Origin: a virus
IMG/VR virus record: IMGVR_UViG_3300038701_001662
Span: 1-28,087 of that record
Strand: one strand, 5' to 3'
DNA: 28,087 nt
Part shown: one piece after another, positions 3,631 to 20,866 of the stretch
How positions within the stretch are numbered: the stretch's first letter is position 1
How the letters are laid out: each line of letters starts with the position of its first letter
Made by a program: the position numbers and the translations under genes
Notes under the pieces: model-generated
Told to the model about the DNA's origin: nothing
The model's input: only the letters and a program-made list of their open reading frames with translations
The model's database searches: none

Positions 3631-3634
3631 AATA

Positions 3635-4627: not shown

Positions 4628-4635
4628 CAAATATA
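4628..4635 (-). promoter_or_regulatory. possible -7 element TATATTTG before the fibre gene
   Basis: On the minus strand TATATTTG fits the Bacteroidota TAnnTTTG -7 consensus. It ends only 3 bases before the ATG at 4624, so a transcript from it would be nearly leaderless or would start inside the gene. No good TTTG -33 box is seen. The same element stands in front of the portal gene, also next to the 21-bp palindrome. Confidence 0.35.
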
Positions 4636-4648
4636 ATTAAAATTCAAC

Positions 4649-4669
4649 TATTTAGAATGATTCTAAATA
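4649..4669. promoter_or_regulatory. 21-bp perfect palindrome, putative operator copy 1
   Basis: Core ATTTAGAATGATTCTAAAT flanked by T and A gives a perfect 10-1-10 inverted repeat. It sits between the divergent starts of the fibre gene (4624, minus) and a small membrane protein (4716, plus). An identical copy apart from the central base lies before the portal gene. The TTAGAATnATTCTAA core has the 7-1-7 geometry of Fur/PerR/Zur boxes. Which regulator binds is not known from the sequence. Confidence 0.7.
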
Positions 4670-4715
4670 ATAATCTAACATAAAATTTTTTAACTTTATC
4701 CATTACCTTTGATAA

Positions 4716-4922
4716 ATGGTTTTAATATTTATACTTTTTGTCGGTGGTGGCTATCTTATAGGTAAACTTATTGCTTCTTTCATTCCTGATGAGAAAAAAG
4801 AAACCATCACCTTTATTAACCATACCTACGAAACACATAACCACTTACACATTGATAAGGACACTATTAAATCTCTTACTGATAAGACACAAAGTTCCCA
4901 TCACTATCAATCACAAGATTAG
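4716..4922 (+). CDS. small N-terminally anchored membrane protein, histidine-rich tail
   Basis: A 68-aa protein and the only convincing plus-strand gene in the window. Residues 1-24 form a hydrophobic helix (MVLIFILFVGGGYLIGKLIA). The rest is hydrophilic with a His-rich patch (THNHLHID, then SSHHYQSQD). It fills an otherwise empty gap between two minus-strand genes and overlaps the end of the 688-aa tail gene by 47 bases. It diverges from the fibre gene across a shared palindrome, which supports it being real and regulated. TACCTTTG at 4704-4711 resembles a -7 box but is very close to the ATG. The function is unknown; an envelope-located phage protein such as an exclusion or lysis helper is possible. 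Confidence 0.6.
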   Translation: MVLIFILFVGGGYLIGKLIASFIPDEKKETITFINHTYETHNHLHIDKDTIKSLTDKTQSSHHYQSQD

Positions 4923-6942
4923 GTACTTCAAGACTTTCATTTGTGGCTATTAGCTGTTCGTCTCTGTTTATATATGCTCTTCCTCTCGATTTTAACATTG
5001 GTAAACGTACTTCGTAAAGGTTGCTTTCTTCTAATGGTCCTTCTTTTTCAATTTCACCGTTTTTAATGTAATACGTTCCGTTGATTATTACCACTTCATT
5101 ACTGGCCTGTTCTACAATCATTCTGTAGATTTCTTTTGTTACTGGCCCAATAATAAAAAGGTTTGTTTCGTGCAATGAGCCTGAGACTAAACCGCTAGAC
5201 GTGTCGCCTTTGTTGACCTCGCTTTCCTGATCGTAGTTTCCTTCTATATTAATAATTGGTAAACGTGCCTTTTGCTGAATACCACTTGCATAAAAGACAT
5301 CTGTATTATCTATGCCGTAGCTTATCATTTCAATGGTGTTTTTTTGTTCGGTCTTAACGTTCTGAAATTCCGATAAGCGAACTTTTGTAGGAAATCTATC
5401 ATCGGTTTCGGTTATCCTTACCTGAAAGCACGAGTTGTTATAAGCCGACATGGCAATGGTAAACTCAAAGACATTGAACTCTTGACGGTTAAAAATAGAC
5501 TTTGTTATAATGCTTGTCGTTGCACCGCCAGAATAAACCGAACTAATAACCAGAACTTCAGCTTGTAAATCCTCATCAAAAATGACATTCTCTATCTGAA
5601 ACCATGCAGCACCTATATTTACATAATTTCCGATAACACCCCATTCTGGTAAACCACCGTTTAAAAGATAGTCCGTTCCTGTATCTACATCGGTATCATA
5701 ATCATAGATATTACCAGAGGTAAAATAAATTCCTGTTTTACCATCACCTAAATCATAGCTTATAGCATCTCTAGCATCTTTAATTCCTATAAATTCAGTT
5801 AACTGCAAAGGTGTAACGGTATCTTCAGTACCATCTTCTTTGAGTATCTTAATTTCTATGTTCTGATAGTTAGACCACAATTGACTTGTAATGGTATCGC
5901 AACTGTTCCAACATTGATGTTCTCTGTATGCCAATCTTTGGTTGCGTGCAAAGGCTTGATAGCTCAATGTGTTTTCATCATTTTGTGACGCACCACAAGG
6001 CGCAAAGATTTCTACGACTGCAAATCTTATTGAGTTGCTTTTGCTTATATAACTGTATGGATTGGTAATGTTATTAGCATCCATAACAAAATCAAGACTA
6101 GCCGAACATCCAAAACCATCACGAACATAAACGGTATAGTTGCCATTTTCTAAACCTGGAAAAACGTTAGATGTTTGCCATTCCGTATCGTTCAAAGAAT
6201 ACTCAATTGTTCCGTTTTCAGCTAAGTTTGAAACGGTAATTATTGCAGTTCCGCCATTTGGTGAACTCGTAGAACTTACCGAAATGTTCGCGCTTGTTAA
6301 AAGTGCTGGAACTTCAAAGTTAAATTTACGCGTGTCTACAATTTGACCGTCGGCACTTTCGCAAATCACTTTAAATCCGACACCTCTAGGACGTTCAAAA
6401 ATTAAAGGGTTTGCGATGTTTACATAAGTTGTGTCTGGGTCATCAGTAAAATAAAATTCCGTTACTAAAATACTTGTTGTTATACTTACACGATAATGTG
6501 AACATTGTGTATTGCTTAAAAATTCAGATTCCAACAATTCAACGTCATCTATCGTTAGAATATCACCTGTAAAGTTTTCAATGACCGCAGTAACACTTCC
6601 ACTTAATCCGTAAGGTGGCCCAGTAGTATAATCATCGTAATTATAAAATCCTGAGAAGTCGTTGTTGGCAACTTTAGATTCTATGACTACGACATTATCT
6701 GTTCGAGTTATTTCGTATAAGTTGGTGCTGTTATAATCGAGATTAAAAGCTACCACAAAGTTAATTGCCGACCTTTCGCCAACAATTCCAGTTGCAGTGC
6801 CTTGCGTTACTTGATTGGATTGAGTTCTTTGCGTTTCCCAATTCTCATAAATACTTACGGAATTTAAAGAAGCTGTAAATCCTATACGTTCTTTTAAATC
6901 TAAATCGGCATTGAATGTTAATGTTATCTTAGAAAAACTCAT
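4876..6942 (-). CDS. distal tail / baseplate protein with a SprB-like repeat domain
   Basis: A 688-aa protein starting MSFSKITLTF; its ATG overlaps the stop of the preceding gene (ATGA). It is mostly beta structure without a signal peptide. Residues about 215-287 contain one domain like the SprB repeat of flavobacterial gliding adhesins: IEYSLNDTEWQTSNVF, a glycine/asparagine turn, then YTVYVRDGFGCS. The C-terminal 250 residues hold further beta domains with a conserved-looking ESNLYEVRLPMLKSRGRAY segment. Position after tape measure and a first distal-tail protein suggests a tail-tip or baseplate hub component. It is one of the genes likely to contact the cell surface. The exact role is inferred from order only. 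Confidence 0.82.
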   Translation of the reverse strand: MSFSKITLTFNADLDLKERIGFTASLNSVSIYENWETQRTQSNQVTQGTATGIVGERSAINFVVAFNLDYNSTNLYEITRTDNVVVIESKVANNDFSGFYNYDDYTTGPPYGLSGSVTAVIENFTGDILTIDDVELLESEFLSNTQCSHYRVSITTSILVTEFYFTDDPDTTYVNIANPLIFERPRGVGFKVICESADGQIVDTRKFNFEVPALLTSANISVSSTSSPNGGTAIITVSNLAENGTIEYSLNDTEWQTSNVFPGLENGNYTVYVRDGFGCSASLDFVMDANNITNPYSYISKSNSIRFAVVEIFAPCGASQNDENTLSYQAFARNQRLAYREHQCWNSCDTITSQLWSNYQNIEIKILKEDGTEDTVTPLQLTEFIGIKDARDAISYDLGDGKTGIYFTSGNIYDYDTDVDTGTDYLLNGGLPEWGVIGNYVNIGAAWFQIENVIFDEDLQAEVLVISSVYSGGATTSIITKSIFNRQEFNVFEFTIAMSAYNNSCFQVRITETDDRFPTKVRLSEFQNVKTEQKNTIEMISYGIDNTDVFYASGIQQKARLPIINIEGNYDQESEVNKGDTSSGLVSGSLHETNLFIIGPVTKEIYRMIVEQASNEVVIINGTYYIKNGEIEKEGPLEESNLYEVRLPMLKSRGRAYINRDEQLIATNESLEVPNLVIDSDGNFVSYQ
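6082..6300 (-). other. SprB-like repeat domain inside the 688-aa tail protein
   Basis: This covers residues about 215-287. The visible signature is the order 'IxYSLNDxxWQxSxxFxxLxxGxYTVYVRDxxGC', written here with x for variable positions. This matches the known SprB repeat pattern seen in gliding adhesins and other Bacteroidota surface proteins. A single copy is present. Confidence 0.7.
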
Positions 6943-9230
6943 ATCGCGCTTTGTATTAATGTGAATTGTCCTTTACCGTTTGGCTTTAGGCTTATTATTT
7001 TTCCTTTTTCGAGTTCGCCGTTTTCGTTCATAAACTCTACTTTCCCGTAGATGTTAGGTATCTTAGTTCCGTTTGGTAGAATGGTGTAACCCTCTATTTT
7101 TTTAATGAGTTCCCTATCTATCTTGAATTCAAACTTAACTTCTCTTGGTACGTCTCTTGCTGGTTCTAAATTTGTGTTAGGTACGTTTCCATTTTCGGCA
7201 TATGCTGGTTGTCCTATCGCTTGTATGGTAACTTGGCTTTTTCCTGTTGAGCTTCCGAATATGATGGAATCTAAAGGGTATTTGTTTAATCCAGCCCTTA
7301 ACTTGTAACCGTGTTTTAATAATAATTGTACTGGCGACCATAGGAAATTATACGAGCTGTCTGGGTTGAACATTCCAACTGGTTCAACTTCCAAAACATC
7401 CTGCCATTTTTTAAGTTCAAAAATTCCTGTTGCACTTGGTTTTACGTCATGCGCCCAAATATCTAAATCACCGCTTTGGTCTGTTGTTGGTGCTGTTATT
7501 TTATTACGTCGTCTTATGATTTCTTCACCATACGGATCCCATCTGTACTTAGCTGTTTTTTTGTATTCGTTGGTAGCCCCTTCGATTATGGTCGTGAAAT
7601 TGGCTTGGGTGTTGGTTTCTTGCAATCCCATGACTTCTTCGTAGTCACCGCCCTTGTCCGAGCCTATGGTAATTGATGAGTAGTAATAATCTTCTGCAAC
7701 TTTGCGTTCTACATTTTTAACCTGTAGGTATTCAAAAACACCGTTAACTTCTTTACCTAGTCTTATGGTAACGTTGTTATTATTGAAGTACTTTGAATCC
7801 TCGACGATGATACGTTCCTTAAATCCTATGCGCTCAATTCCCAATCCTACGTTGTGCAATACTTCTAAACTCTCAAAGGCATCTAAAAAAGAGGTTGCAA
7901 AAGGTTTGTAAAGTTCATCTTCTGAAGTAAACTGTCTTATCCAATGGCCATGAGCCAAAAATGTATAAGCACCTGGACCATCTACTGCATAACCTCTATC
8001 AATACGACCGTAATAATCGGATTTGAAGTTTGTTTTGTCGCCTGTCATTATCTCTACCAATCGCTCTAAGAGTTCATAGGCTAATATGCCATTCGTAAGT
8101 GTTGGATCGTAATAACTGTCTTCTTCAATTTTTAGATTTGAAACTATATTTTGAGCAAAACAACGAACACCTGCGTTATTATCTACATACATATCCGATT
8201 GCAATAGACATTCAAGAGCCATGCTTTCACCTTCTAATAATTCTATTTGAGTGCTATAGCTTCCGGAAATAGGTAAAGTAAATGAGGGATAAACACCATC
8301 AAAATCAGAAGGTAATATATTTAGTGATGTTCCGTTAGGGATTAAATCGCCTGTTACACCTTCACCTGACGAACGTAGTTCATAAATAACCCTTCTTTCC
8401 TTTACATCATAGTTTGCACCATTTTCATATATTGTTAAACATACTTGATATCTGCACCATTGTACATTCTCGTATTGTTGAAAATAAGCATAAAAATCAA
8501 AATCTAATGTTATATTCATTGTACGAGGTCTATCATTTAAAGCATAAAACATCATACCCGTAGTTCCGCCAACTTCGTTGCTTGTACTGTTTAAAAATAC
8601 GCTATTGGCTAAATCGTGTGATTGACCCGTTAACTGTAAAGGAATACCACAGACTTGGGCTCTTGTGCTGCCGTCATTAGATTGTACTTGACATTTAGCT
8701 TCATTGTTAATGTTATCTGTTTTAAAATCGGTCTCTAAAAAAATTCGTCTACCTGGTAAGTTGAGTTGTTTTAATTCTAGTTCTGGTATAGCTTTACCTG
8801 TAAATGTTTCGGTGCGCTCAAGTTCTACTTTGTCCTTGCGTCTTGTTTTTAGTGTATTTTCTAAACCACCAGATTCAAACTTCATAGACACTACGTTGTC
8901 TTTATATTCCCATGTACGAACAGATAAAAAACCTTCATAGGCACGTTGCCACTGCATTTGATTGTCCAGTGCGTTTTTTACCAATCGTAACTTAGCGTTG
9001 ATGTCTAATTGATATATGGCATTATTTATCCAGTCTTTGGCTGCACCTTTAAATCTCAATGCGTTTGAAAACTTAGCGAATATGCCCTCGTAATCATCAT
9101 TGCGTGCATATTCTTTATCGTCCTCATTCCAGCCTATAATATCATCTGATGGCACTGGTAGATTACCTACATTGCTGTTTTGTAGCTCGTAATAAACTCT
9201 ATCTATGTAAGCTGTATCTATCATTACCAT
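6939..9230 (-). CDS. distal tail protein (tail-tip/Dit-Tal position)
   Basis: A 763-aa protein beginning MVMIDTAYIDRVYYEL. An alternative ATG at 9224 gives a TAATG overlap with the tape-measure stop and is equally plausible. It is beta-rich, with no signal peptide or membrane helix. There is an N-terminal segment of about 120 residues with EYKDNVVSMKFESGGLENTL and a C-terminal segment ending in a small basic domain (EFMNENGELEKGKIISLKP). It lies directly downstream of the tape measure, where siphophages encode the distal tail protein and tail-associated hub. I infer one of those roles. No peptidase or lysozyme motif was found. Confidence 0.82.
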   Translation of the reverse strand: MVMIDTAYIDRVYYELQNSNVGNLPVPSDDIIGWNEDDKEYARNDDYEGIFAKFSNALRFKGAAKDWINNAIYQLDINAKLRLVKNALDNQMQWQRAYEGFLSVRTWEYKDNVVSMKFESGGLENTLKTRRKDKVELERTETFTGKAIPELELKQLNLPGRRIFLETDFKTDNINNEAKCQVQSNDGSTRAQVCGIPLQLTGQSHDLANSVFLNSTSNEVGGTTGMMFYALNDRPRTMNITLDFDFYAYFQQYENVQWCRYQVCLTIYENGANYDVKERRVIYELRSSGEGVTGDLIPNGTSLNILPSDFDGVYPSFTLPISGSYSTQIELLEGESMALECLLQSDMYVDNNAGVRCFAQNIVSNLKIEEDSYYDPTLTNGILAYELLERLVEIMTGDKTNFKSDYYGRIDRGYAVDGPGAYTFLAHGHWIRQFTSEDELYKPFATSFLDAFESLEVLHNVGLGIERIGFKERIIVEDSKYFNNNNVTIRLGKEVNGVFEYLQVKNVERKVAEDYYYSSITIGSDKGGDYEEVMGLQETNTQANFTTIIEGATNEYKKTAKYRWDPYGEEIIRRRNKITAPTTDQSGDLDIWAHDVKPSATGIFELKKWQDVLEVEPVGMFNPDSSYNFLWSPVQLLLKHGYKLRAGLNKYPLDSIIFGSSTGKSQVTIQAIGQPAYAENGNVPNTNLEPARDVPREVKFEFKIDRELIKKIEGYTILPNGTKIPNIYGKVEFMNENGELEKGKIISLKPNGKGQFTLIQSAI

Positions 9231-12200
9231 TTAATGTTTTGAGAACGGAATAATTGATATGGTATATCGTATTTTTGATTCTGAATGTTGACACCCAACT
9301 TCAATCGTTTTATAGCTCTGGTATTTTCTTTTAGTTCACCTACCATTTCATCTGTGTATTTTTCAAAAGCCAATAAAGTCTCATAATGATTGAGGTTATG
9401 TTTGTCATGCGCTAGGCTCGTCATAATGGATGCTGCAATCATTTGGTTTGAGAATTCCTCTACACTTGGAATTACCTTAGTATGTGGTGCAAGATTTAAG
9501 GTCGCTCTCGTTTTTTGGATGTATGGCTTTTTACCTGGTTCCATTATGACCTCTGGTCTAACTTCTGCTACTTCAGCTAATCCACCTACGTGATCTTCTG
9601 TACCGTATCTATATTTAGGGATTGGCTTGGCTAATACGGCTGCGATTTGCAATGCACCTAATGCACCTGCGGTAATTGCCAAAGGTCCGCCCAATAATGG
9701 CCCTAAACCAACTGGAGGTGGTGCAAGTGCTGCAATAACGGCTTGAGCTGTGGTAACACCTATATTAAATATTGAAAAGGCTTTAGCGAATTTTGCAGCC
9801 TTTATCTGTTCTTGACGTTTCTTTTCTTCTAGTTCTTGACGTTTTAGCTCTCGTTCTTCTTCTAAAGCGGCTCGTTGGCTTTCATCTTCACCTGCTAATT
9901 CTATTTGTCTATCGTAGTATTCTTCTTGTGCATCTATTTGTTCATCGATACCTTGAATATTAGCATCGAAAACCGCACCTACAACATCACCAACAAAAGC
10001 ACTTACTGTAGCAATTTGACCTAAAGTTTCTGCAGCATTTTCAGCTTTTGTTATAAAAACATTAAAGAAATCTTCTATATTTCTTGCATCCAATCCTAAA
10101 CTATCTGCAATGTTCTGAGACGCCTTTGATATAATGTCTTGTTTAAACTCTAATAACGTCTGTAAAACTTCGGCTTCTTTTTCTGCATTTTCTATGCTAT
10201 TATCAGTTTTCTTGTTGGATAAATCAATCTCAGCTGCAGTTAAAGATTCTGTCAACTGCTTTCTAAGTTCTAAGTATTGCTCTTCTTCGGCTATGGAAGT
10301 AAGACCTAGTACCTTTCTTCTAAGGAAAAGCTTGTCTAGGTTCTCGATTTCTATGTTTATGTTATCAATAGCATTCTGTAACTGTTCTTCAGATGCTTCT
10401 CGTCTGATCTGTGCAACCGTTTCTTCATATTGATTTATCCTTTCAATTTTCTGTTTTCCTGAAAGGTTCTCTAGGTCATTTTGTAGTTTTGCTTGTTCTT
10501 GTGCAATTCTTGAGTTAATAGCATCGCTTTCTATTTTTCTTTCTTCCTCTAACCTAGCTTTTGTTTTCTCAAAACTACTTTGTAGTACAGTTTGGGTGTT
10601 GGATGCGCGCTCACGTATCAAAGCATCATAATCATCGGAATAAGCAAGTTCTATTCTTTTGATTTCATCGGCTCGTCCTTTGGCTAGTTTTATGGCACGG
10701 TCTCGCTCTAATTGTAATAACAGAATGGATTTATCGGTATAGTTAACAACTGCTGCTAAACGCCTTGAAGTGGTTTCTTTGTCACTATCCAATATGCGCT
10801 TTTGTGCATCTGCTTGAGATTGTAGGCGTTGTTTGTCTAGGTTGAAGGCGTCTTGTTCTAATAAGTTCTTTCTGTCATTATAAGCTTTGTTTCCACCTAG
10901 AATTGATTCAAGTTCTTTTTCTAAGAGTTTTATTTTTTCCTGAATTATTTTAGCTTCACTTCTTGTTGTGGCTTGGTCTAATCTTTGTTTTTCTTTAGCT
11001 ATTAGTTCATTTAAGTACTTTACGTTTCTTGCCTGTACTTCTTTTTCGTTACCAGCATTTTCTTCTTTTTTTATTTGATTGATATCATCAAGAACATCTG
11101 CGTATCTTTCTGCGAATTGGTTTAATTTTTCTTGAAGGTCAGATGCTTCGTTTCTTAAATCATTGCTTTTGCCTTCAAACCTAACGGATGTTTCCAATGT
11201 TCTACTAACATCTAACAATGCTTTTTGTCTACTGTTTAAAGCATTTACACCTTTGTTTTGAGCTTTTATTAAATCTTCTGTAACACCAACTTCTTCTAAA
11301 GCTAAATCTATAGCCTCTTGAAGTGTTCGTCCATTAGTTAATCTTTCAGCTTCTTCAACCCCTAATGTTTTTGTTAATTTTTCACGTGCTCTATTTTCAG
11401 CTTCAAAAGCTACTCTTAATTTATCGCTAGATTCTTTAGATTTTTCATCTACCTCTTGAGCAAAATCTTGTAGGGCTATTTTGGCAACATAACCTTGGTT
11501 AACTTCTTTAAGCCTGTCCCTAATATCTTCGTTGCTTACCTTTTCTGTATCTAGGTTCTTTAAAAATCCAGGATATTTTTGTTGAAGTGTTTGTATTTTT
11601 TTAGCTCTTTCTTCGTTTGATAGATTGACATCTGTAACTTTTTGGACTAAAATATTGAGTTCGAATTGTTCTTCTTTAACTGCATCAGATAGTCTTTTTG
11701 TAGGTGTTATAGCGTTTAGTACGTTTGCGCCAAAATCATAAATTGCATCACTAGCCTTAGCGACAAATCCTTTTCCTATTTCTAACTGAAAATTCTGGTA
11801 TGCTGCATTGAATCTTTGTTGAGAATTACCTGCTTCATCTAGTATATTTCCAGCTTCTGCAATTTCTCTTTTGGCAATGTTAGCCACTGCCTTAACAAAG
11901 TCTGGTGTTTTTTCGAGTTCGGCATTTAGTTCGGTTGCTGAAATACCAAGGTTGTCGATTCTTAGTTTAGATTCTTTGGATAGACCTTCTACGAGTGAAG
12001 ATTGTAATTGCTCTATACTTTGACCTGTTTGCGCTGCTCTTACTGCTAAAAACTCAAATAAAGTGTCAGATTCTTCTAATGATAGATTAAAGTTATCGAA
12101 ATCTACAAGGGCTTTCTTTATATCTAAATCAGATAACAACCCTCTTGTCGATGCTTTAACACGCTCAAAGGCATCTACACCTGTATCACCTAATCTATCA

Positions 12201-12955
12201 AAGGCAAACTCAACACCTTTGGCTTCAATAGCTAATTGTCTGGCTTCTTTTGCAAAATTAAAAGCTTCACGCAGTCCAAATCCAGCACCTATTAATGGTA
12301 AAAATGATTTGATAGATTTTATTGCACCACCAAATAATCTAGGGTATTTACCGACATCATCTTGCCATTGACCTGTGGCTTTTTTTATAGCTTGTAATTT
12401 CTTTTCGTAAGAAGTATAAGCTTTTGTGCTTTCTCTTAATTCTTTCTGTTCTCTATCCGATAACGAAAAACCTAATGCTTGCTTTGCTTGCAAATCCTGA
12501 ACAGACTTACGAGCTTTGTCACGCTCATTAGTCAACCTACCAATAAAGGTCATATTTCGCTTTATCTCTAAATTTTGAAGTCTCAAGGTTTCCCTTGCTT
12601 CAATATTCTGCTTATTTGTCGTAGTGTTGACGTTCTGTAATTTGTTGGTGGTACGCAATAGACTAGATAATGACTTTTGACGTTCTTCATCTACTTTTGC
12701 TAATGCTTTGCCTTGATCTTCGTATGCTTTTGTGGCAGTTTGGGTAATCTGTATTTGCTTATTTTGGATAGCAACCAATTGTTTGTTATTTGCTACACCT
12801 TGCAATTGCTGGTATAATGTAAATAATTGTTTTGAGGACTTTATAAGTTCGTCATTTTTATCAATGGCAATCTGTAAATTTTTGGCATACTCAGAACCCC
12901 AACTTAAACCCTCGTCGGTTATTAAATCTTTTCTTGTGATGTTTCCTGTTGCCAT
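9224..12955 (-). CDS. tail tape measure protein
   Basis: A 1243-aa protein, the longest in the window. It is dominated by long charged coiled-coil stretches (residues about 30-200 and 440-1060). A short region around residues 205-235 (FGGAIKSIKSFLPLIGAGFG) is amphipathic, and residues about 1085-1140 form a hydrophobic Ala/Gly/Pro-rich segment (APPPVGLGPLLGGPLAITAG). The following segment (YRYGTEDHVGGLAEVAEVRPE) is typical of tape-measure C-termini. The product sets tail length and probably forms the channel for DNA entry. At about 1.5 angstrom per residue the tail would be near 185 nm. The start forms a TAATG overlap with the preceding gene, placing it in one operon. Confidence 0.95.
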   Translation of the reverse strand: MATGNITRKDLITDEGLSWGSEYAKNLQIAIDKNDELIKSSKQLFTLYQQLQGVANNKQLVAIQNKQIQITQTATKAYEDQGKALAKVDEERQKSLSSLLRTTNKLQNVNTTTNKQNIEARETLRLQNLEIKRNMTFIGRLTNERDKARKSVQDLQAKQALGFSLSDREQKELRESTKAYTSYEKKLQAIKKATGQWQDDVGKYPRLFGGAIKSIKSFLPLIGAGFGLREAFNFAKEARQLAIEAKGVEFAFDRLGDTGVDAFERVKASTRGLLSDLDIKKALVDFDNFNLSLEESDTLFEFLAVRAAQTGQSIEQLQSSLVEGLSKESKLRIDNLGISATELNAELEKTPDFVKAVANIAKREIAEAGNILDEAGNSQQRFNAAYQNFQLEIGKGFVAKASDAIYDFGANVLNAITPTKRLSDAVKEEQFELNILVQKVTDVNLSNEERAKKIQTLQQKYPGFLKNLDTEKVSNEDIRDRLKEVNQGYVAKIALQDFAQEVDEKSKESSDKLRVAFEAENRAREKLTKTLGVEEAERLTNGRTLQEAIDLALEEVGVTEDLIKAQNKGVNALNSRQKALLDVSRTLETSVRFEGKSNDLRNEASDLQEKLNQFAERYADVLDDINQIKKEENAGNEKEVQARNVKYLNELIAKEKQRLDQATTRSEAKIIQEKIKLLEKELESILGGNKAYNDRKNLLEQDAFNLDKQRLQSQADAQKRILDSDKETTSRRLAAVVNYTDKSILLLQLERDRAIKLAKGRADEIKRIELAYSDDYDALIRERASNTQTVLQSSFEKTKARLEEERKIESDAINSRIAQEQAKLQNDLENLSGKQKIERINQYEETVAQIRREASEEQLQNAIDNINIEIENLDKLFLRRKVLGLTSIAEEEQYLELRKQLTESLTAAEIDLSNKKTDNSIENAEKEAEVLQTLLEFKQDIISKASQNIADSLGLDARNIEDFFNVFITKAENAAETLGQIATVSAFVGDVVGAVFDANIQGIDEQIDAQEEYYDRQIELAGEDESQRAALEEERELKRQELEEKKRQEQIKAAKFAKAFSIFNIGVTTAQAVIAALAPPPVGLGPLLGGPLAITAGALGALQIAAVLAKPIPKYRYGTEDHVGGLAEVAEVRPEVIMEPGKKPYIQKTRATLNLAPHTKVIPSVEEFSNQMIAASIMTSLAHDKHNLNHYETLLAFEKYTDEMVGELKENTRAIKRLKLGVNIQNQKYDIPYQLFRSQNIKW

Positions 12956-13536
12956 TACTTACGTTTGTTTTTTGCTGCCTGTTGGCGCATTGCTTTCAGT
13001 TTTTCATCAAACACCTTTTTAAGGGCATAGAACTGTGTTACTGTGATGCTGTTGGTGTTGGTGTATTGTAGATTGGTATAACTCGCATAACCTAGTATAA
13101 CTTCGTCCATGCTTGTTGCTTTCTTACCGTTGTGTTTTGGCAATAAGGCTTCGAGTTCTTCAATGAACATTAACAAGGCTTGGCTTTCATTTTTGATAGT
13201 CTCTAAGTCGTTAATGAAATTATCTTCAGATAGTTTAAATCCAAACTCTCTTAATTGGTTTTCGAGGTCTAAATCTCTATCAAACTTCAACGCTTCAATT
13301 GCGAACTGGATGCCATTGTATTGAGTTTTATATTCTTCAATTTCTTTTAAGGTTCTAAAGGTTTTCTGTATTTGGTTTGTTGGGTCTAGTTCCTCAAACT
13401 CGGCTTTGATTTGTTCCCATAACTTAGATACTTTGTTTAAGTCGTTTTTGTCGTCTGTCAATAACGACACGTCACCAGAACTCATAATCTGGTAAAACAG
13501 TTTTAAAGGGATAGTATCTAAGGATGTATAGGTCAT
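12955..13536 (-). CDS. putative tail assembly protein before the tape measure
   Basis: A 193-aa, mostly helical, charged protein ending in a very basic tail (AMRQQAAKNKRK). In siphophages the genes between tail tube and tape measure usually encode the assembly chaperones that coat the tape measure. Size, helical content and position fit this. The ATG overlaps the upstream stop (ATGA) and its TAA overlaps the tape-measure ATG (TAATG). No sequence motif proves the function. Confidence 0.8.
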   Translation of the reverse strand: MTYTSLDTIPLKLFYQIMSSGDVSLLTDDKNDLNKVSKLWEQIKAEFEELDPTNQIQKTFRTLKEIEEYKTQYNGIQFAIEALKFDRDLDLENQLREFGFKLSEDNFINDLETIKNESQALLMFIEELEALLPKHNGKKATSMDEVILGYASYTNLQYTNTNSITVTQFYALKKVFDEKLKAMRQQAAKNKRK

Positions 13537-14009
13537 AGCTTTAGTTCCTTTCGGATATAGTTCTGTAAATAGGGTAGAAGCCTCTCTTGTATTATAAATA
13601 CTTTGTTGACATCTTGAAGTCCAAAAAACGCTTTACTCTTCAATCTTACGTTGTCAAAAATCTCATCGAGCTTTGGATCTGTACTTCCAAATAAGACTTG
13701 ATTGTTTACGACCCTTGCAAAAATTGAAGGCAAAAAGACACCTGTTTGTTTAAAATCGTAAGGCTCACCTTCACGCTTTATAATTGTTCCTTTACCTAAA
13801 AGAGCTTCGTTTGTTGTGATGTATTCGGTAGCCCTTGAGTACGTTCCCAAAGGCTTTCCGAATATATCCTCACTTTCTTTGAATATCTGTTGACGGTTGA
13901 GTTCCGCCATTTCATCTTCAATGGATTTTAGATATTGAAACAGTACATTACTCAGATGCGTTGGCGTTAGCTTCTGAACTCTCTGAAGTTGCTGTTGAAG
14001 TGTTGCCAT
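13533..14009 (-). CDS. putative tail morphogenesis protein
   Basis: A 158-aa protein. The segment about residues 50-60 (FGKPLGTYSRATEY), then GEPYDFKQTGVFLPS and a C-terminal LFGSTDPKLDEIF/FFGL region look like a conserved phage morphogenesis protein of Bacteroidota prophages, possibly analogous to tail-completion or virion-morphogenesis proteins. The first 20 codons overlap the preceding gene in another frame by 62 bases, an unusually long overlap. A later start would lose part of the helical N-terminus, so I keep this ATG. The function is inferred from position. Confidence 0.78.
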   Translation of the reverse strand: MATLQQQLQRVQKLTPTHLSNVLFQYLKSIEDEMAELNRQQIFKESEDIFGKPLGTYSRATEYITTNEALLGKGTIIKREGEPYDFKQTGVFLPSIFARVVNNQVLFGSTDPKLDEIFDNVRLKSKAFFGLQDVNKVFIIQERLLPYLQNYIRKELKL

Positions 14010-14184
14010 TGATTTCTTTTTGTAATGCTGTTTTCTGTTTCTTCGTAATATCCTTACCTGTTAAAGCTTTGTATGCTTCCTCTAGTTCGTCTAATGGGAT
14101 GATATGTGAATGTGACTTCTTGAACTCATCCCATTTAGGACTGTAACTATCGCTGAAAGACACATTTTTATATACTTTTCCCAT
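13948..14184 (-). CDS. small tail-region protein with low-complexity C-terminus
   Basis: A 78-aa protein. Residues 1-58 look folded and lysine-rich (WDEFKKSHSHIIPLDELEEAY, written as seen to residue 39), and the last 20 residues are a Ser/Thr/Ala/Asn/Glu tail. That tail is encoded by the same DNA as the N-terminus of the next gene, which may explain its bias. It starts 2 bases after the tail-tube stop. It could be a short chaperone; a programmed frameshift into the 158-aa gene is not supported by any slippery site I can see. Confidence 0.72.
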   Translation of the reverse strand: MGKVYKNVSFSDSYSPKWDEFKKSHSHIIPLDELEEAYKALTGKDITKKQKTALQKEINGNTSTATSESSEANANASE

Positions 14185-14186
14185 GA

Positions 14187-15065
14187 TTAACTAACTGTGA
14201 ATGATACGGCTTCTTCGGTTTCAAACATTGCTAAGGTCTGTGTTACAACGTTAGTTGCAATAGTACCTGTTGCCAAGTCAGTGTCTACGAACGTGTAAAG
14301 ATTAGCATCGTCACCTGAACCAGCACTTACACTATCTGGTGTTTGGGCTGTTCCGTTTGCTAATAGCACTTTAAAGTCGTCAATATCCATACCTGTCAAC
14401 GGCTTGTTATCACAACCGTAAGTCGCTCTAACAACTAAAGACGTTGCTGAAGGTGTACCCACAACTGTTAAGGTTGCTGGATAGATACCTTTGTACTTTA
14501 AGACGTTAAAGTCTGGCGTAACTACAGCACCGTTATTAGATAGTTCGTTAGGGTCTGCATAAACAAACTCTACGACACAGTTTTGAGGGTCGCCCTCAAT
14601 TACTGGCTCGTTTACGATACCTACCAAGAAGTTGCTTAACTCTTGACCTTTGATTGTACCGTCCGATTGCTCTACACCTTTAATCTGACCATCTTCAGTA
14701 AACTCATATACTCTCGTATATTCGCTTTCTTCGTAAGTTTTTAGAGCACCGTGAGAACAATAGCCCAATAAGTGGGTTACACGTAAGCCTTTACGCGCTT
14801 CTTTGGTTTCGATTCGGCTAATTCTACCTTCGTAGTATGTTGGCTCAACATTGGCAAGTTCTGACTTGTCAACGCTGTACATAACTACGATATCCTTAGC
14901 TTCCTTTGCAGTATCCCATGCTGTTTTGCTTCTAAAAGCGGAAGCATCTGGAAACGACTGACTTTCCTTTGCCAAGGCATAAGCAACCGTTGGTTTAGTA
15001 AGGCACTGTTTGTCAGCACCTGTTAGCTTTTTGGTACTTGTAGTACCGCATTTATCGTTTATCAT
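14187..15065 (-). CDS. major tail tube protein with C-terminal Ig-like domain (predicted)
   Basis: A 292-aa protein between the connector genes and the tail-assembly/tape-measure genes, the usual place for the tail tube. Residues 1-200 are beta-rich with a central LRVTHLLGYCSHGALKTYEE segment. The last 90 residues (ATSLVVRATYGCDNKPLTGM, then VLLANG and a final strand) look like an added Ig-like decoration domain, known from several siphophage tube proteins. Several cysteines are present. Confidence in tail-tube role is moderate because it is inferred from order and architecture. Confidence 0.8.
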   Translation of the reverse strand: MINDKCGTTSTKKLTGADKQCLTKPTVAYALAKESQSFPDASAFRSKTAWDTAKEAKDIVVMYSVDKSELANVEPTYYEGRISRIETKEARKGLRVTHLLGYCSHGALKTYEESEYTRVYEFTEDGQIKGVEQSDGTIKGQELSNFLVGIVNEPVIEGDPQNCVVEFVYADPNELSNNGAVVTPDFNVLKYKGIYPATLTVVGTPSATSLVVRATYGCDNKPLTGMDIDDFKVLLANGTAQTPDSVSAGSGDDANLYTFVDTDLATGTIATNVVTQTLAMFETEEAVSFTVS

Positions 15066-15077
15066 CGTATGTGATTT

Positions 15078-15575
15078 TTAATAATTAATTGTTTTTGTAC
15101 TACAACTTGAGTTTATCTCTACATCTCTACCGAACACAATAGCATCCCATATATCTAAATTAGATTTATCTTCTGCTACGTTGGTGTAATTGTAATGTCT
15201 TGCAAATGTGTTTTGTTCCTGGTTTAAAAATCGAACAAATCCGCATTGCTGTAATGCTGTGATAACATAATCGTAAAGTGGGTCTAGCACGTAATTGAAA
15301 TTACTTTCAATACGCTTTCTATTTTCCATTTCTGTTATCGTTTTTGTTGCAAGTATGAACTTTAAACGTGTTTTAAACAAAGGCTCTTTTCCTTTGAGAT
15401 TAATAGGTGTTTCTAGCCAAATCAAAGGGTACTTCACTTTATTTACGGCCATAAAACGGATACAATCGGCTTCTGTACCAAAATCATACTTAGATGATAT
15501 GGCGTTTCCGTCCATATCTGCGATATTTGGTATAGTATCAAAAACCTCAATAAATCTGTTTTCTAACTGTATCAT
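15078..15575 (-). CDS. predicted tail terminator / head-tail joining protein
   Basis: A 165-aa alpha/beta protein. It contains a segment YPLIWLETPINLKGKEPLF, a helix with ENRKRIESNFNYVLDPLYDY, and a C-terminal FGRDVEINSSC. In this gene position (after the connector, before the tail tube) siphophages encode the stopper or tail terminator. The segments fit proteins annotated as such in Bacteroidota prophages, but this is by pattern and order only. The start overlaps the upstream stop by 4 bases. Confidence 0.75.
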   Translation of the reverse strand: MIQLENRFIEVFDTIPNIADMDGNAISSKYDFGTEADCIRFMAVNKVKYPLIWLETPINLKGKEPLFKTRLKFILATKTITEMENRKRIESNFNYVLDPLYDYVITALQQCGFVRFLNQEQNTFARHYNYTNVAEDKSNLDIWDAIVFGRDVEINSSCSTKTINY

Positions 15576-16210
15576 ATACTAAAGATGTTGACCTTCTTAA
15601 AGTCCTTTGGCATCCAGTTAGGATACGTGTTAGGGCTTTCTTCGTTCTTATCGTTTATAAATTCATAGAGACTACGTACACCTGTACCGATTTCATCACT
15701 ATACCCATTGCAAAAGTTACCTACTACTGCATCTACAAAATCATTATAGGCTTCCGTAAACTTGTAAGCAGGGTTTGCCCTTGTTGCGCCTTTGGCTTGT
15801 GGATTGCTTAAACCTACACCTAAGTGTTTGCTTGTTTCCTTTTTTAGCCATTGGCAGTAAACGTAATTTGTAATAAAACTGCGTTTTACAGTTTCATCGG
15901 TAAAGATGATACCACGCCAAACAACGTCTACACCATTTTTAGTGTAGGTTGTTCCATTTAGCAAATCTTTCCATTTCTGGTCTGCACTGCTTTTGATTGT
16001 GTGCAACTTAGTCTGAGCATCATAATCAAACTGATCCATAAATGCTTTTTTAAGCGAGTACCCTAATGTTTTGGTTAGGATGTCTGGCTCATATCGCATT
16101 ATAGAACTATCCGCTTCAGATTTGTTCCCAACCAATGAAGCGTTGGGAACGTCATCTGAAACAAATGGCAGTTCGGTATTGAGTATGAAATAATCTCTTG
16201 TTGTAATCAT
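15572..16210 (-). CDS. predicted head-tail connector (adaptor) protein
   Basis: A 212-aa, mainly helical protein beginning MITTRDYFILNTELPF. Its middle part resembles the adaptor proteins that follow the capsid gene in Bacteroidota phages: a YEPDILTKTLGYSLKKAF helix, a YVYCQWLKKETSKHLGVGLS segment and a NPAYKFTEAYNDFVDAV helix. It would form the ring under the portal. It lies 2 bases after the 62-aa gene and overlaps the next gene by 4 bases. Confidence 0.78.
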   Translation of the reverse strand: MITTRDYFILNTELPFVSDDVPNASLVGNKSEADSSIMRYEPDILTKTLGYSLKKAFMDQFDYDAQTKLHTIKSSADQKWKDLLNGTTYTKNGVDVVWRGIIFTDETVKRSFITNYVYCQWLKKETSKHLGVGLSNPQAKGATRANPAYKFTEAYNDFVDAVVGNFCNGYSDEIGTGVRSLYEFINDKNEESPNTYPNWMPKDFKKVNIFSI

Positions 16211-16212
16211 TG

Positions 16213-16401
16213 TTATGCCTTATTTGGCTTTTTGTCGTCACCAGCTTTATTAGCTTTTTTCGCTTCCTTAACTTCTGTAGCATATTTCTTTGAAACAAGA
16301 ACTTTACCGCAGTCGTCTGATACTTCTTCTACATGATCCACAGGTAATTTAGATGGACCAACCTCAGTCACCTTAATCGGCTTTGTGATTTTTACCTTCA
16401 T
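16213..16401 (-). CDS. small head protein downstream of the capsid gene
   Basis: A 62-aa protein: a short beta region (MKVKITKPIKVTEVGPSKL, then VSDDCGKVLVSKKYATEV) followed by a lysine/alanine-rich tail. Short proteins with the pattern 'S-D-D-x-x-K-x-L-V-x-K-x-Y-A-x-E-V' often follow the major capsid gene in phages and may act at the head surface or neck. It has 2-base gaps to both neighbours, so it belongs to the head operon. The function is unproven. Confidence 0.75.
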   Translation of the reverse strand: MKVKITKPIKVTEVGPSKLPVDHVEEVSDDCGKVLVSKKYATEVKEAKKANKAGDDKKPNKA

Positions 16402-16403
16402 AA

Positions 16404-18209
16404 TTAATCTGCGTTATCGGTATCAATTAAAGTTTGAAGTGCTGCAAGGTTTTCAATAGATGCTTCACCTGCTATCGTAGCTTTGTACTCAGCTAAGTTT
16501 GCTTCTAATGCACCTGTAACACCAGCGTTAACCAATGTTGCAATAGTTAATTCAGAAGCATCATCACTTGTTGCATAACCTTGAACTCTAGCTAAAGACT
16601 GACCAGCAGTTTCTTTTAGAATTGTGATAGCTTCTGCAATGTTGGTAACGTAAATCGCTGATTTCTTAGCTTTCTGTCCATAAGCACCTCTCATGTCCAT
16701 CACGAAAGAAACTTTACGCTTTTTAAGATCGTCAGCATTGTAACCAAAAGCAGTCTCGATATCTTGACGTAAACCGATACGCTCTAAACCTGAGTTACAC
16801 ACTAATAATGAACCTTCTGGGATTTTAGTAGTCTGACCTTTCATCATTCCTTTAGCACCTACGATTTCACCAATAGCATTTACCGCTAAACGGTTATCTT
16901 TTATTGAGTTTTCGTTAGCATCTTTTAAATCCTCAAGCTCATCTTCTTGGCGTGGGTTCATAATGAACATGTCCGTGTTCCAATCGTTTAATCTCGCTTG
17001 TAATTTAGCCTTACCTATTACTGAAACAATGTTCGCTTTAGGACTTTGACCTGTAAACAATAACGGATTAAACGTATCACAAGAATGTGTTGTATTAAAA
17101 GCACCCCAAGGACTAGCAGAGTTATCACCATCTGCTGTAAAGATGTTTTCGTCTAATACAGTTTTGATGTTACTTGCTAACTGGTTTACTAACTCGTCCA
17201 TCACTTCAGCAGAATCTCTAAGTAAAGACTTACCTATTGTTGCAGTTGCACTAAAGTCAAATACTTTGAAGTCTTTATCGTTTAGCTCAATTCTACTATC
17301 CGCAGATGGTGCTGCACCTTCAGCAACTAATTCACCGTTAGCTTCAAGGTTTTCATATACTAACAAATTCATTAAAGAACCGCTAATGTTTTGAACCGTG
17401 AATAAATCTATCGCATGGTCGTTAGCTGTTAATGGTGGTGCAATACTACCTATTGATGTTCTGTTGATACCTTGACCTGATACCGCTTGTGTACCAGTGC
17501 CACCAATGAACATATTTTCACCAGCTTTACGCACTAAATGCTTCGTAGATAATCGGCGAACGTCTTTAACTTGTGTTACAGCACTTTCACCAATGGTTTG
17601 ATTGCTCTTTAAGTTAATAGGACGAATTTTAACACCGTTTTCTTCGATTTCTTCACCTAATAAACCAGATTTTTCAAAGAAATCTTCAACGATTGAACGG
17701 ATGATCCCTTTGTTTACTTTTCCTTCTGGTGTAATGATGCCTTGATCTTGAAGTTTCTTAAGCTCGATACCTTGAGTTTTTAATTTTTCTTCGTAGTCAT
17801 CTAATAGGTCTTGATTTTTCTTTACAGCTGTCTTTAAAGTTTGAATTTCTTGAGAATCGAAACCTTCTAGTTTTTTCTCGAAATCACCTAATTTACTTTT
17901 TAAAGATTCTTCTGAAATCAATCCTTTTTTAGCATCATCAATCATCTGTTTGAATTCTTTTCTCAATGATTCTTTTTGATACTCAGCCTTATCAGCGAAA
18001 TATTGCGCTTGTTCTTCATCTGAAAGTTTAGCGATTTCATCTACTGATAACTCTTTAAAAGTTCCTTCTTTAATACTTCCCCAAATTGGAACCAAGGAAG
18101 CGATACTCATAGCACCACCAGCTAGTGGGTCTAATAATGCAAATGTTAATGCCACCGCAAAAAGCAGGCATAAAAACAATACTGTTTTGTTTTTAAAAAT
18201 GTTTTTCAT
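16404..18209 (-). CDS. major capsid protein precursor (HK97 fold) with N-terminal membrane segment
   Basis: A 601-aa precursor. Residues 8-27 are a strongly hydrophobic stretch (VLFLCLLFAVALTFALL) after KNIFKNK, like a signal anchor. Residues about 55-185 are a charged coiled coil, which fits an internal scaffolding (delta) domain removed by the prohead protease encoded just upstream. Residues about 215-540 are the HK97-type shell domain, with the E-loop/P-domain region around AAPSADSRIELNDKDFKVFD and a late FVMDMRGAYGQKA segment. Residues about 546-601 form an extra C-terminal domain (LTIATLVNAGVTGALEANLA) not needed for the fold. An ATG at 18110 would remove the hydrophobic segment, but the first ATG has the tight 2-base spacing to the upstream stop seen across this operon. 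Confidence 0.93.
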   Translation of the reverse strand: MKNIFKNKTVLFLCLLFAVALTFALLDPLAGGAMSIASLVPIWGSIKEGTFKELSVDEIAKLSDEEQAQYFADKAEYQKESLRKEFKQMIDDAKKGLISEESLKSKLGDFEKKLEGFDSQEIQTLKTAVKKNQDLLDDYEEKLKTQGIELKKLQDQGIITPEGKVNKGIIRSIVEDFFEKSGLLGEEIEENGVKIRPINLKSNQTIGESAVTQVKDVRRLSTKHLVRKAGENMFIGGTGTQAVSGQGINRTSIGSIAPPLTANDHAIDLFTVQNISGSLMNLLVYENLEANGELVAEGAAPSADSRIELNDKDFKVFDFSATATIGKSLLRDSAEVMDELVNQLASNIKTVLDENIFTADGDNSASPWGAFNTTHSCDTFNPLLFTGQSPKANIVSVIGKAKLQARLNDWNTDMFIMNPRQEDELEDLKDANENSIKDNRLAVNAIGEIVGAKGMMKGQTTKIPEGSLLVCNSGLERIGLRQDIETAFGYNADDLKKRKVSFVMDMRGAYGQKAKKSAIYVTNIAEAITILKETAGQSLARVQGYATSDDASELTIATLVNAGVTGALEANLAEYKATIAGEASIENLAALQTLIDTDNAD

Positions 18210-18211
18210 TT

Positions 18212-19018
18212 TTAGTTGTTTAAATGATTAATAATTAAATTTCGTTTGGCTTGAAGTGCTCTCGCGGCTTCTTTCTGAGTGCTGTTTTGCGGCTCATAGT
18301 TTTTCACCCAAAGGGTAGGTGTAACGCTGTTGCTGCCAAACACAACTGCGCTTCCCTCGCGTTTCTTAGCTTCGTATATTACCCAGAAGTAACCGTACTC
18401 ATCGGCCACATCAGGATTAACACATTGCGCTTTCATTTCGTTAAAGAAATCCATCTGCTTTTGGCTGTCCTCATCGTAATAGGCGATGTCTAAATCGACG
18501 TAAAGCATACCAACGGAATGTTGGTCTACGTCACCGTTTTTATAGGCATCGAACATGAACGGTATTTTTGAACGTTCTAAAACAAATTGATTGATATTAG
18601 CCACCGTTTTAAAGTCAACATCAAGACCTAATTGGTTAAAGTTTGAGTTCTCGTTGTAACTCTTAGCTTTTTTTGAGATGACGCTCTCGAACTTGTTCTC
18701 GTGTTGCTTTAAATGATGACTATATGGATTGTCCTTTACGGTTTTGTTCCAAATCTTTGGCATGTGTAGGTCTAAATGGCTATCAATAATGTTAGTAGTA
18801 TTGATAACAGATTTTACTTCAATGAAATCTGAAGTGATATCCTCAATCATTGGTGTAAATTCCTTAGTTTTTAAACCTTGAATTATAGGCTGTGAGTTAG
18901 TTTTGTACTCAGCCTTTTTGATTTCTCTTAGTTCTTCAAGATGTTTTTTTATAAACCTTGTCTGGTCCATCTTATCCGTGAACTTTTTGCCTGGATATTG
19001 TTTTATGGTATAATTCAT
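18212..19018 (-). CDS. prohead maturation protease (HK97/U35-type)
   Basis: A 268-aa protein. The core about residues 65-180 has the features of phage prohead serine proteases: a strand region IIDSHLDLHMPKIW, a candidate catalytic His106 in LKQHENK, and a candidate catalytic Ser168 in DQHSVGMLYV. The His/Ser spacing and the SVG(F/M) motif fit the HK97 gp4 (MEROPS U35) family. It would cut the scaffolding domain off the capsid precursor encoded next. Its start overlaps the stop of a 42-aa ORF by 4 bases. The N-terminal 60 residues are a lysine-rich helix that may be a binding extension. Confidence 0.88.
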   Translation of the reverse strand: MNYTIKQYPGKKFTDKMDQTRFIKKHLEELREIKKAEYKTNSQPIIQGLKTKEFTPMIEDITSDFIEVKSVINTTNIIDSHLDLHMPKIWNKTVKDNPYSHHLKQHENKFESVISKKAKSYNENSNFNQLGLDVDFKTVANINQFVLERSKIPFMFDAYKNGDVDQHSVGMLYVDLDIAYYDEDSQKQMDFFNEMKAQCVNPDVADEYGYFWVIYEAKKREGSAVVFGSNSVTPTLWVKNYEPQNSTQKEAARALQAKRNLIINHLNN

Positions 19019-19143
19019 TTTGTCACGGTTTTAGAGTTAGACAATGATTTTATCTTGTTATCTAGTGATTCTTTTAACCTTTCGTCACCGTTTTTTTCAG
19101 CCTTACGTCTTAAATCTTTTAGTTTTTCGATTTTCGCTTTCAT
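19015..19143 (-). CDS. 42-aa charged helical protein between portal and protease
   Basis: A very short ORF (MKAKIEKLKDLRRKAEKNGD then a Lys/Ser-rich tail), predicted to be a single charged helix. Its TGA overlaps the protease ATG (ATGA), the same coupling used by other gene pairs here, and it starts 1 base after the stop of the 44-aa ORF. The packing argues for a real gene. Possible roles are a scaffold peptide or simply a translational coupler for the protease; no family is recognised. Confidence 0.6.
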   Translation of the reverse strand: MKAKIEKLKDLRRKAEKNGDERLKESLDNKIKSLSNSKTVTK

Positions 19144-19144
19144 C

Positions 19145-19279
19145 TTATTCGGTTTTAAGTTTTCTTCTCTCGCTTCTTTTCAACTTTCTGTAAAATGGTT
19201 GAAATGAATATTTGTAACCTGTTATTGGGCATGTGGTTATTTGCATCTTTCCTGTATGTCCTATGATTGTACTATTCAT
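19145..19279 (-). CDS. 44-aa basic protein overlapping the portal stop
   Basis: A short ORF starting MNSTIIGHTGKMQITTCPIT and ending in a basic cluster (YRKLKRSERRKLKTE). Its ATG overlaps the portal stop (ATGAATAG), and its stop lies 1 base before the next small ORF. The basic C-terminus suggests nucleic-acid or capsid-interior binding. No known family is recognised, but contiguous packing without gaps supports coding. Confidence 0.58.
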   Translation of the reverse strand: MNSTIIGHTGKMQITTCPITGYKYSFQPFYRKLKRSERRKLKTE

Positions 19280-20669
19280 TTTTAGCGATTTCGGTTTTTA
19301 TGTTAATAGCGTTTAGCTGTTCTGGGCTTAAATCCCAGATGTGCAGTTCGCCTATAGTTTCGTTGTGTGGTAATCCTATGGCTGTTAAATAAGCGTTATA
19401 GTTGATTGCACCACTTCTAAAGGCACGTTCGGCAGTTTGTGAATGCTTTTCTGTGGTTTCGGCTTCTTCTTTTTTGTTGGATTGAAGTATCTTTAAGTGG
19501 TCATACGTACCTATTAATTCTATCCCAAGGCTTTCGGTATTGAAATAGTTATTGAAGTTGAGCATGAAATCTTCTGTCTCTGGTATAATTGTAGAATCGT
19601 AAAGTCGCTTTTCGGATGCGTTAAGGTTTTCGAACGTTCCGCCCTTTACGTAGTATTTAGCCAATAGTTCGGGTACGCCCTTTGAGGTTGCTATTGCAAT
19701 AGCATCGCTTTCGATTTCCTCGAACAACATTAAATCCTTTGTGCTGAAGCCTGTTTTTTGCCACTTCAGTGGTATTGGTGTTATTGCATTAACATATTGT
19801 CCGTCAATAATTCCATATTTAGCCAATGCCTTTTGAGCTGTTTCAATATCTTCTTCTTTATAAGGAATATACCCACCCAATGCATCATCTTTAGAATCAT
19901 TCGTAAAAACACCTTGTGGTCCTCTACGTTCTATGAGTACATTACGAGCTTCAAAGGCTTTTGTAATATTTGTTATTGGTTTAGTGAGTGCCAATAAATC
20001 CGATTTACCTATCGTGAAATCGCTATCGAACCGAATATTGGTGTTATTGAAGTGCATCACAGTATTTGGGTGCAAATCCTTATTGATGTTGTTGAAATTC
20101 TTTAGAACATACTTGCTTATAATTTCCTCTTTTTTGGTAGCTGTAAGCCAGTTGCCTGTAAGCACTGGACTTATACAATAGGGTGGAAGATTGTTAAGCA
20201 CCTCGATATCTTCGTATGTGAAACGGTTTTCCCATCCTATCGGAATCATTCCGTAAACGTAACCGTTGCCGAATACCTCGTAATTAACCTTGAGCTGTCT
20301 CAACCATTCTGATCCTGTCTGTAATGGATTTGGTTTTTTTAGAAGCTTTCTTAATTTACCACCATCTGCATCGTATTGTTCTAAGGGGATTATTTCACCT
20401 GTCTTTAAATCTTTGACCTTAAAGCGCATGTTTGCGAATGCTTCTGACTTGATGTTTATAATGGCATTAACTACTGGATTAGAGTAGTAGCAGTCTAGTA
20501 GGTAAATGAGTTCGGATAGATTTTGCCAAGTTGGTGTACCTTTAGTTAAGAATACTGAAGGTGGTATAAGGTTTAAGGCCTGTTGTGCGGAAGGTGAAAC
20601 GGTAATTGAGCTTTTGTCTACCGTTCTTAATACAAGTTTGTCGTAATTTCTTTTGAGCCAATTAGCCAT
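19272..20669 (-). CDS. portal protein (HK97-type)
   Basis: A 465-aa protein with the typical portal layout. The N-terminal region has YYSNPVVNAIINIKSEAFANM (helix, residues about 62-82), followed by LLKKPNPLQTGSEWLRQLK, a clear phage-portal motif. The wing/stem region is around residues 160-330 and the helical crown is C-terminal (TAERAFRSGAINYNAYL, then IGLPHNE). The portal forms the dodecameric ring for DNA packaging and joins head and tail. It lies about 200 bases downstream of a terminator and behind a promoter/palindrome, so the head genes can be transcribed apart from the terminase genes. Confidence 0.95.
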   Translation of the reverse strand: MANWLKRNYDKLVLRTVDKSSITVSPSAQQALNLIPPSVFLTKGTPTWQNLSELIYLLDCYYSNPVVNAIINIKSEAFANMRFKVKDLKTGEIIPLEQYDADGGKLRKLLKKPNPLQTGSEWLRQLKVNYEVFGNGYVYGMIPIGWENRFTYEDIEVLNNLPPYCISPVLTGNWLTATKKEEIISKYVLKNFNNINKDLHPNTVMHFNNTNIRFDSDFTIGKSDLLALTKPITNITKAFEARNVLIERRGPQGVFTNDSKDDALGGYIPYKEEDIETAQKALAKYGIIDGQYVNAITPIPLKWQKTGFSTKDLMLFEEIESDAIAIATSKGVPELLAKYYVKGGTFENLNASEKRLYDSTIIPETEDFMLNFNNYFNTESLGIELIGTYDHLKILQSNKKEEAETTEKHSQTAERAFRSGAINYNAYLTAIGLPHNETIGELHIWDLSPEQLNAINIKTEIAKNE

Positions 20670-20689
20670 CTAACGTGTTAGTTTTAAAT

Positions 20690-20708
20690 GGCACTCTAAG
20701 GCACTCTA
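20690..20708. repeat. tandem 10-base repeat GGCACTCTA in the portal leader
   Basis: GGCACTCTA occurs twice, ten bases apart on the plus strand, between the putative -7 element and the portal start. On the mRNA this gives two TAGAGTGCC units in the 5' leader. It may be a translational or transcriptional operator; no partner is known. Confidence 0.5.
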
Positions 20709-20711
20709 GAG

Positions 20712-20719
20712 CAAATATA
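20712..20719 (-). promoter_or_regulatory. putative -7 element TATATTTG of the portal/head operon
   Basis: TATATTTG on the minus strand fits the Bacteroidota TAnnTTTG consensus and lies about 45 bases before the portal ATG. A TTTA (not TTTG) stands about 21 bases upstream, inside the palindrome, and may be a weak -33 box. The terminator just upstream supports a new transcript starting here. Confidence 0.55.
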
Positions 20720-20725
20720 AAAAAT

Positions 20726-20746
20726 TATTTAGAATAATTCTAAATA
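20726..20746. promoter_or_regulatory. 21-bp perfect palindrome, putative operator copy 2
   Basis: Core ATTTAGAATAATTCTAAAT plus flanking T and A. It is identical to the copy at 4649-4669 except for the central base. It overlaps the expected -33 to spacer region of the head-operon promoter, the usual place for a repressor site. Geometry is 7-1-7 like Fur-family boxes. Confidence 0.72.
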
Positions 20747-20816
20747 GCGAATTAAATTAATTATATTTGGGCTTGTAGATTTATTTCATTGATTAGAGAT
20801 TTAATTTATTAAATGT

Positions 20817-20848
20817 AAAAACCCTCAGCTAGTTGTTGAGGGTTTTTT
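20817..20848 (-). terminator. bidirectional intrinsic terminator after the terminase/small-gene operon
   Basis: AAAAACCCTCA and TGAGGGTTTTT can form an 11-bp stem around a 9-base loop, with T-rich tracts on both strands. On the minus strand it follows the 56-aa gene by about 20 bases, so it closes the terminase-side operon before the separate head-operon promoter. Confidence 0.85.
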
Positions 20849-20866
20849 GTTTTAAATAAACATCTT

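Follow-up and report, generated by a model that had tools for sequence, protein, structure and literature searches.

Virion production in a phage of Bacteroidota, probably of flavobacteria, may be tied to host iron through two Fur boxes at its structural operons. The DNA analysed, called the window here, is a 28-kb IMG/VR virus record (28,087 bases) with genes for terminase, portal, tape-measure and tail proteins, an integrase and a tRNA-Met. Two exact copies of the palindrome TATTTAGAATnATTCTAAATA lie at 4649-4669, between the minus-strand fibre operon and a divergent plus-strand gene, and at 20726-20746, upstream of the portal operon. Sequence comparison strongly supports reading them as Bacteroidota Fur (iron) boxes. 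With a probability of about 0.6, iron-loaded host Fur would block the fibre and portal promoters, together with that of the divergent gene for a small histidine-rich membrane protein, and low iron or an action of the phage would release them. The exact match to a Fur box, the placement over promoters, the conservation in place and the recurrence in unrelated phages can all be read from the sequences.

A preliminary description of this DNA had reported the two palindromes as unique in it, with a 7-1-7 inverted-repeat layout and a minus-strand TATATTTG beside each, and these observations hold. No further site with three or fewer mismatches occurs in the 28,087 bases, and the two copies differ only at the centre base, G at 4659 and A at 20736. 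Chance origin is ruled out by the palindrome's absence from 100 dinucleotide shuffles of the window and by a reversed-letter control palindrome of the same composition, which has no match in IMG/VR. Bacteroidota promoters have TAnnTTTG as their -7 element. The window's only minus-strand copies of TATATTTG, an element of this type, lie at 4628-4635 and 20712-20719, one per palindrome, 13 nt (fibre unit) and 6 nt (portal unit) from the palindrome end in the direction of transcription. The TTG expected at the usual -33 place is absent from both promoters, and the palindrome fills that region; the -7/-33 promoter type is noted in PMC5609570. In other words, both palindromes appear to cover promoters of the Bacteroidota type, one serving the tail-fibre operon and the other the portal operon.

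The genes behind the two sites largely match what had been proposed. The portal gene (19272-20669, minus strand; PHROG portal, E 2e-23; 65% identical in the Polaribacter phages Freya and Danklef) indeed opens the head/tail unit. The fibre assignment was nearly right: a 329-aa protein gene of no PHROG family comes first (3635-4624, minus strand; 93% identical in the same place in a close relative, G001), and a gene for an 862-aa tail spike/fibre-like protein follows it (1072-3660, minus strand), recognised by weak matches to PHROG tail spike (E 9e-4) and Pfam End_N_terminal (E 0.002). On the plus strand, a further TATATTTG stands 15 nt from the portal-side palindrome and is followed about 50 nt on by a strong terminator hairpin (aaaaccctcagc..gagggtttttt; 20762-20850), an arrangement that could yield a short RNA under that palindrome; since it is not kept in G001, this -7 box may be due to chance. 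A complete tRNA-Met (24113-24186, minus strand), between the integrase and terminase genes, is either a phage tRNA or an attachment-site copy, and tRNA is the only known RNA family found in the window.

Comparison with a characterised flavobacterial regulator identifies the palindrome. In Riemerella anatipestifer (Flavobacteriia), the Fur box is ATTTAGAATTATTCTAAAT, and Fur gel shifts (EMSA) were obtained on four promoters (PMC5609570). The inner 19 bp of the window palindrome are identical to this Riemerella consensus, and the site matches ATTTAGAATnATTCTAAAT exactly. In both systems the boxes lie within about 100 bp of a start codon, but the Riemerella boxes serve host iron genes and those of the window face phage portal and fibre operons.

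Bacterial genomes carry the same palindrome in front of iron genes. When a single genome from each species was scanned, it turned up in at least 119 stretches, mostly of Bacteroidota, and among the matches listed only 12 of 119 sites fall inside open reading frames of at least 100 aa, compared with 276 of 357 random positions. One hundred proteins encoded behind the palindrome, again from the matches listed, include TonB plug (18), FUR (5), HmuY (4), SufBD (3) and FeoA (2) domains. Cytochromes and a family of haem-synthesis enzymes also appear. In a control of 96 other genes from these loci, each of the five domains occurs fewer than two times. Non-Bacteroidota had been dropped from this set by title, a filter that left in a few loci of Verrucomicrobia and Streptococcus. 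Single sites in hosts mostly deviate from the palindrome: only two exact ones occur across 60 Flavobacteriaceae genomes, and 17 of these genomes carry a site with no more than one mismatch, the control giving none. The preliminary description had left the choice between Fur, PerR and Zur. The Riemerella consensus with its gel shifts and the iron genes behind the palindrome strongly support Fur; PerR and peroxide control find no support, as the 25 commonest families behind the palindrome (matches listed) include no catalase or peroxidase and the genes found there are iron genes, which makes PerR unnecessary. That description also named absence of the motif from host metal promoters and homologous phages as evidence to the contrary, and the motif is present in both.

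Both sites have stayed in place within the window's own family. Seven relatives, the viral records G001 to G005 together with Danklef and Freya, were gathered by portal similarity. The portal-side box is exact in G001, G002 and G004, has one mismatch in G005, Danklef and Freya, and is degenerate in G003, with four mismatches by eye; on the fibre side the box persists in G001, G005 (two mismatches), Danklef and Freya. This positional conservation extends to relatives whose proteins share as little as about 30% identity, and outside the closest pair the flanks diverge and the box and promoter element persist. Gaps to TATATTTG, counted by eye, are 6 nt in the window and G001, 14 in G004 and G002, 5 in G005 and 15 in Danklef and Freya on the portal side, and 13, 13, 13 (TATATTTA), 2 and 2 on the fibre side. 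Danklef and Freya have three boxes per genome, the third standing before the tape-measure block with gaps of 4 and 4 (also by eye). Within the family the gaps form two classes, about one helical turn apart.

The fibre-side palindrome also faces a small gene transcribed away from the fibre operon. This 68-aa reading frame (4716-4922, plus strand), with its start codon 46 nt from the palindrome, encodes an N-terminal hydrophobic stretch and an HxHxH cluster (THNHLH). It is 93% identical in G001, and outside the overlap with the neighbouring gene the two copies differ by 14 synonymous and 3 non-synonymous codon changes, which marks it as a real gene. AlphaFold predicts one confident helix at residues 2-29 and gives the histidine region low confidence; the protein is possibly metal-binding. 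Freya gp23, Danklef gene 13 and one reading frame of G005 share its layout, and sequence relatives at several box-bearing viral loci give a consensus of about LFIVxVGGGWLIGK...FIDxSVHHHYHEHKNIxIIDD.

Relatives of this protein usually adjoin such a box. A search by the protein type alone returned 20 loci, 11 of them on contigs outside the palindrome set; just upstream of the gene, six of these 11 have a box with at most two mismatches, one with three and two with four, and two have none. In some 3,700 control windows there was no match with two or fewer mismatches. On the far side of the box, the neighbouring gene is often of tail spike, minor tail or tail-fibre-like type. The two-site plan of the window recurs in at least six other records, with one box before an operon of the phrog_5824 type and another at the junction with the histidine-rich gene; examples are IMGVR 3300025518_000025 (L133, L147), where the phrog_5824-type operon of L133 includes a capsid gene, and 2775507239_000002 (L171, L208). 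A small phage membrane-protein family is thereby defined here, recognisable by the box next to it. The closest relative of the window's protein in a bacterial genome, 68% identical (L112, 7186-7401), stands by an exact box in a Winogradskyella MAG, hinting at the host group of the window phage.

Beyond this family, the exact palindrome occurs in at least 118 IMG/VR stretches. Among the matches listed, 2 of 123 viral sites lie inside open reading frames, versus 250 of 369 random positions, and all 48 viral records checked carry one to six sites with at most two mismatches and no control site. Unrelated phages have the palindrome before capsid, terminase or tail-fibre operons, and the operons behind viral boxes hold genes for capsid (L133; phrog_29, E 5e-44), terminase (L126), portal, tail and tape-measure proteins. 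Among the matches listed, the gene that comes first behind an exact box belongs most often, by a wide margin, to one of two PHROG families without a name: phrog_5824 (L122, L133, L171 and about 20 more), with a capsid gene third in the operon, and phrog_32199 (L124, L125 and about 15 more). In one lineage (L183 at 6382-6402, also L193, L207 and L229) the exact box precedes genes for a single-strand DNA-binding protein and a primase; the association is therefore not restricted to late genes, and such boxes stand on replication genes too. Two more distant isolated phages, Tenacibaculum phage JQ and Nonlabens phage P12024L, lack the box, their best matches having five mismatches.

Viral and genomic boxes resemble each other in spacing and differ in sequence detail. 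Box-to-promoter gaps in the viral set are mainly 12-15 nt, with smaller groups at 3-7 and 33, and the genome set spreads over -2, 5-7, 12-15, 25-28 and 33, so the viral classes (mainly 12-15, also 3-7 nt) occur at genome sites as well; the final TA of the palindrome may be what produces the -2 class. Exactness is far commoner in viral boxes than in those of Flavobacteriaceae genomes. The centre base is C or G at 88% of viral sites (L122-L239) versus 41% of genome sites, and counting by cluster of downstream protein gives 36 of 46 versus 19 of 51 (P 8e-5). Viral boxes, with their greater exactness and their preference for C or G at the centre, may thus have a partly different reader.

Under the favoured mechanism, iron-loaded host Fur would sit on the boxes, just upstream of the -7 element, and bound Fur would block the portal/head-tail promoter and the divergent fibre and histidine-rich membrane-protein promoters, as it does at host iron genes. 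A fall in cellular iron would then release the virion genes. Lytic growth might alternatively escape the block if the phage removes, dilutes or outcompetes Fur, through gene dosage or a competitor such as Freya gp09. From binding onward, each step of this scheme is our proposal: we infer host Fur as the bound protein, repression as its effect and iron status as the signal. A precedent is the stx1 promoter of the Stx1 prophage, which is repressed by host Fur (PMC5552940). There, as here, a Fur box lies over a phage-borne promoter; the response of stx1 to the host iron regulator is known, whereas the window boxes are recognised from sequence. Besides the exactness and centre bias of viral boxes, two points weigh against repression by host Fur. 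The missing clear -33 TTG would also suit an activator, and a phage needing its late genes in iron-replete cells must evade Fur somehow.

A rival reading is a regulator of the phage's own. In both Freya and Danklef, a gene for a Fur-family protein lies a short way upstream of the terminase genes. Freya gp09 (L246, 4082-4510) scores 32.4 bits against Pfam FUR, above the cut-off of 23.1, and the profile matches only at residues 2-77 of 121. Aligned with Bacteroidota Fur, it has retained RVSRATI in the DNA-reading helix, but the HF histidine and the HDH and HSLYFYG segments are missing; it thus has a Fur DNA-binding domain with its recognition helix, but neither the metal-binding ligands nor a full dimerisation domain. 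Such a protein could be the main reader of a borrowed Fur site, activating late promoters or displacing host Fur independently of iron, with another small DNA-binding protein, or one encoded outside the fragment, doing the same in the window. The three boxes per Freya or Danklef genome, the near-perfect viral boxes with their C/G centre and the lack of a -33 TTG are consistent with this proposal. No Fur homologue, however, is found in the window, its five relatives G001 to G005 or the 48 other box-bearing viral records, some of which are fragments; a search of IMG/VR by peptide patterns found no relative of the Freya type, and all 17 records with that type are Freya or Danklef. The Freya-type protein, being absent from all these, cannot be the general reader, and we regard a phage-encoded main reader as rather unlikely.

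Nor do ordinary phage operators account well for the sites. Two near-identical operators before two transcription units are a common phage layout, and the window has a candidate regulator, a 90-aa helix-turn-helix protein (23501-23773, minus strand; PHROG HTH, E 6e-5; relatives in G002 and G004), encoded upstream of the terminase genes in the region that holds the Fur homologue in Freya and Danklef. An unrelated repressor would make the likeness to a Fur box coincidental, and yet the palindrome equals the flavobacterial Fur consensus letter for letter, has iron genes behind it in genomes and recurs in unrelated phages, so we consider such a repressor very improbable. Multicopy Fur boxes on plasmids titrate Fur. 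Boxes on replicating phage DNA might likewise act as decoys that derepress host iron uptake during infection, and viral records, each with one to six near-perfect boxes, are far more densely set with them than host genomes, but the sites are not free-standing, keeping set spacings upstream of -7 boxes and starts and the same gene neighbours. We consider this reading very improbable as well; it and repression by host Fur are not mutually exclusive.

Freya and Danklef (Freyavirus, Forsetiviridae; PMC8776804), with portals about 65% identical, are the window's nearest isolated relatives. They share its boxes at the same two places and its type of divergent histidine-rich small gene; unlike the window, they have the extra box before the tape-measure block, with a histidine-rich gene at that third box, and the Fur-family protein. 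Passages of PMC8776804 report integrases in both, so they may be temperate; the boxes go unmentioned in those passages, and the word 'iron' was not found in the paper. HxH iron sites are known in the tail fibres of T4 (gp37) and Alteromonas phage R22Y (PMC11705849). The window likewise has histidine HxH motifs next to tail-fibre genes, but its HxHxH cluster, a putative metal site, lies in a separate small membrane protein; the fibre itself has a single HxH, and an iron-loaded fibre was therefore rejected.

Host Fur control of accessory prophage genes is already known, as for the stx1 toxin gene in a single phage; the sites described here cover virion-building operons of many unrelated phages. 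The open-access literature, with most subscription journals outside it, yielded no report of Fur boxes on phage structural or virion operons or of a phage-encoded, metal-blind Fur. A wider proposal is that many Bacteroidota phage lineages share an iron switch, made up of consensus host Fur boxes over virion operons, a divergent histidine-rich, possibly metal-binding membrane protein by the tail fibre and, as an addition in Forsetiviridae, a Fur blind to metal that overrides the host regulator. Virion production would then be gated by host iron and not by a classical phage repressor alone; we put this forward tentatively, at somewhat less than even odds. A natural metal-blind Fur could show how a regulator drops its metal sensor yet keeps its site. 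Consensus-like Fur boxes in many related and unrelated phages suggest that these viruses read host iron before making particles. If host Fur binds them, the number of virions produced in iron-poor waters would hinge directly on iron, and phage production would be linked to iron cycling.
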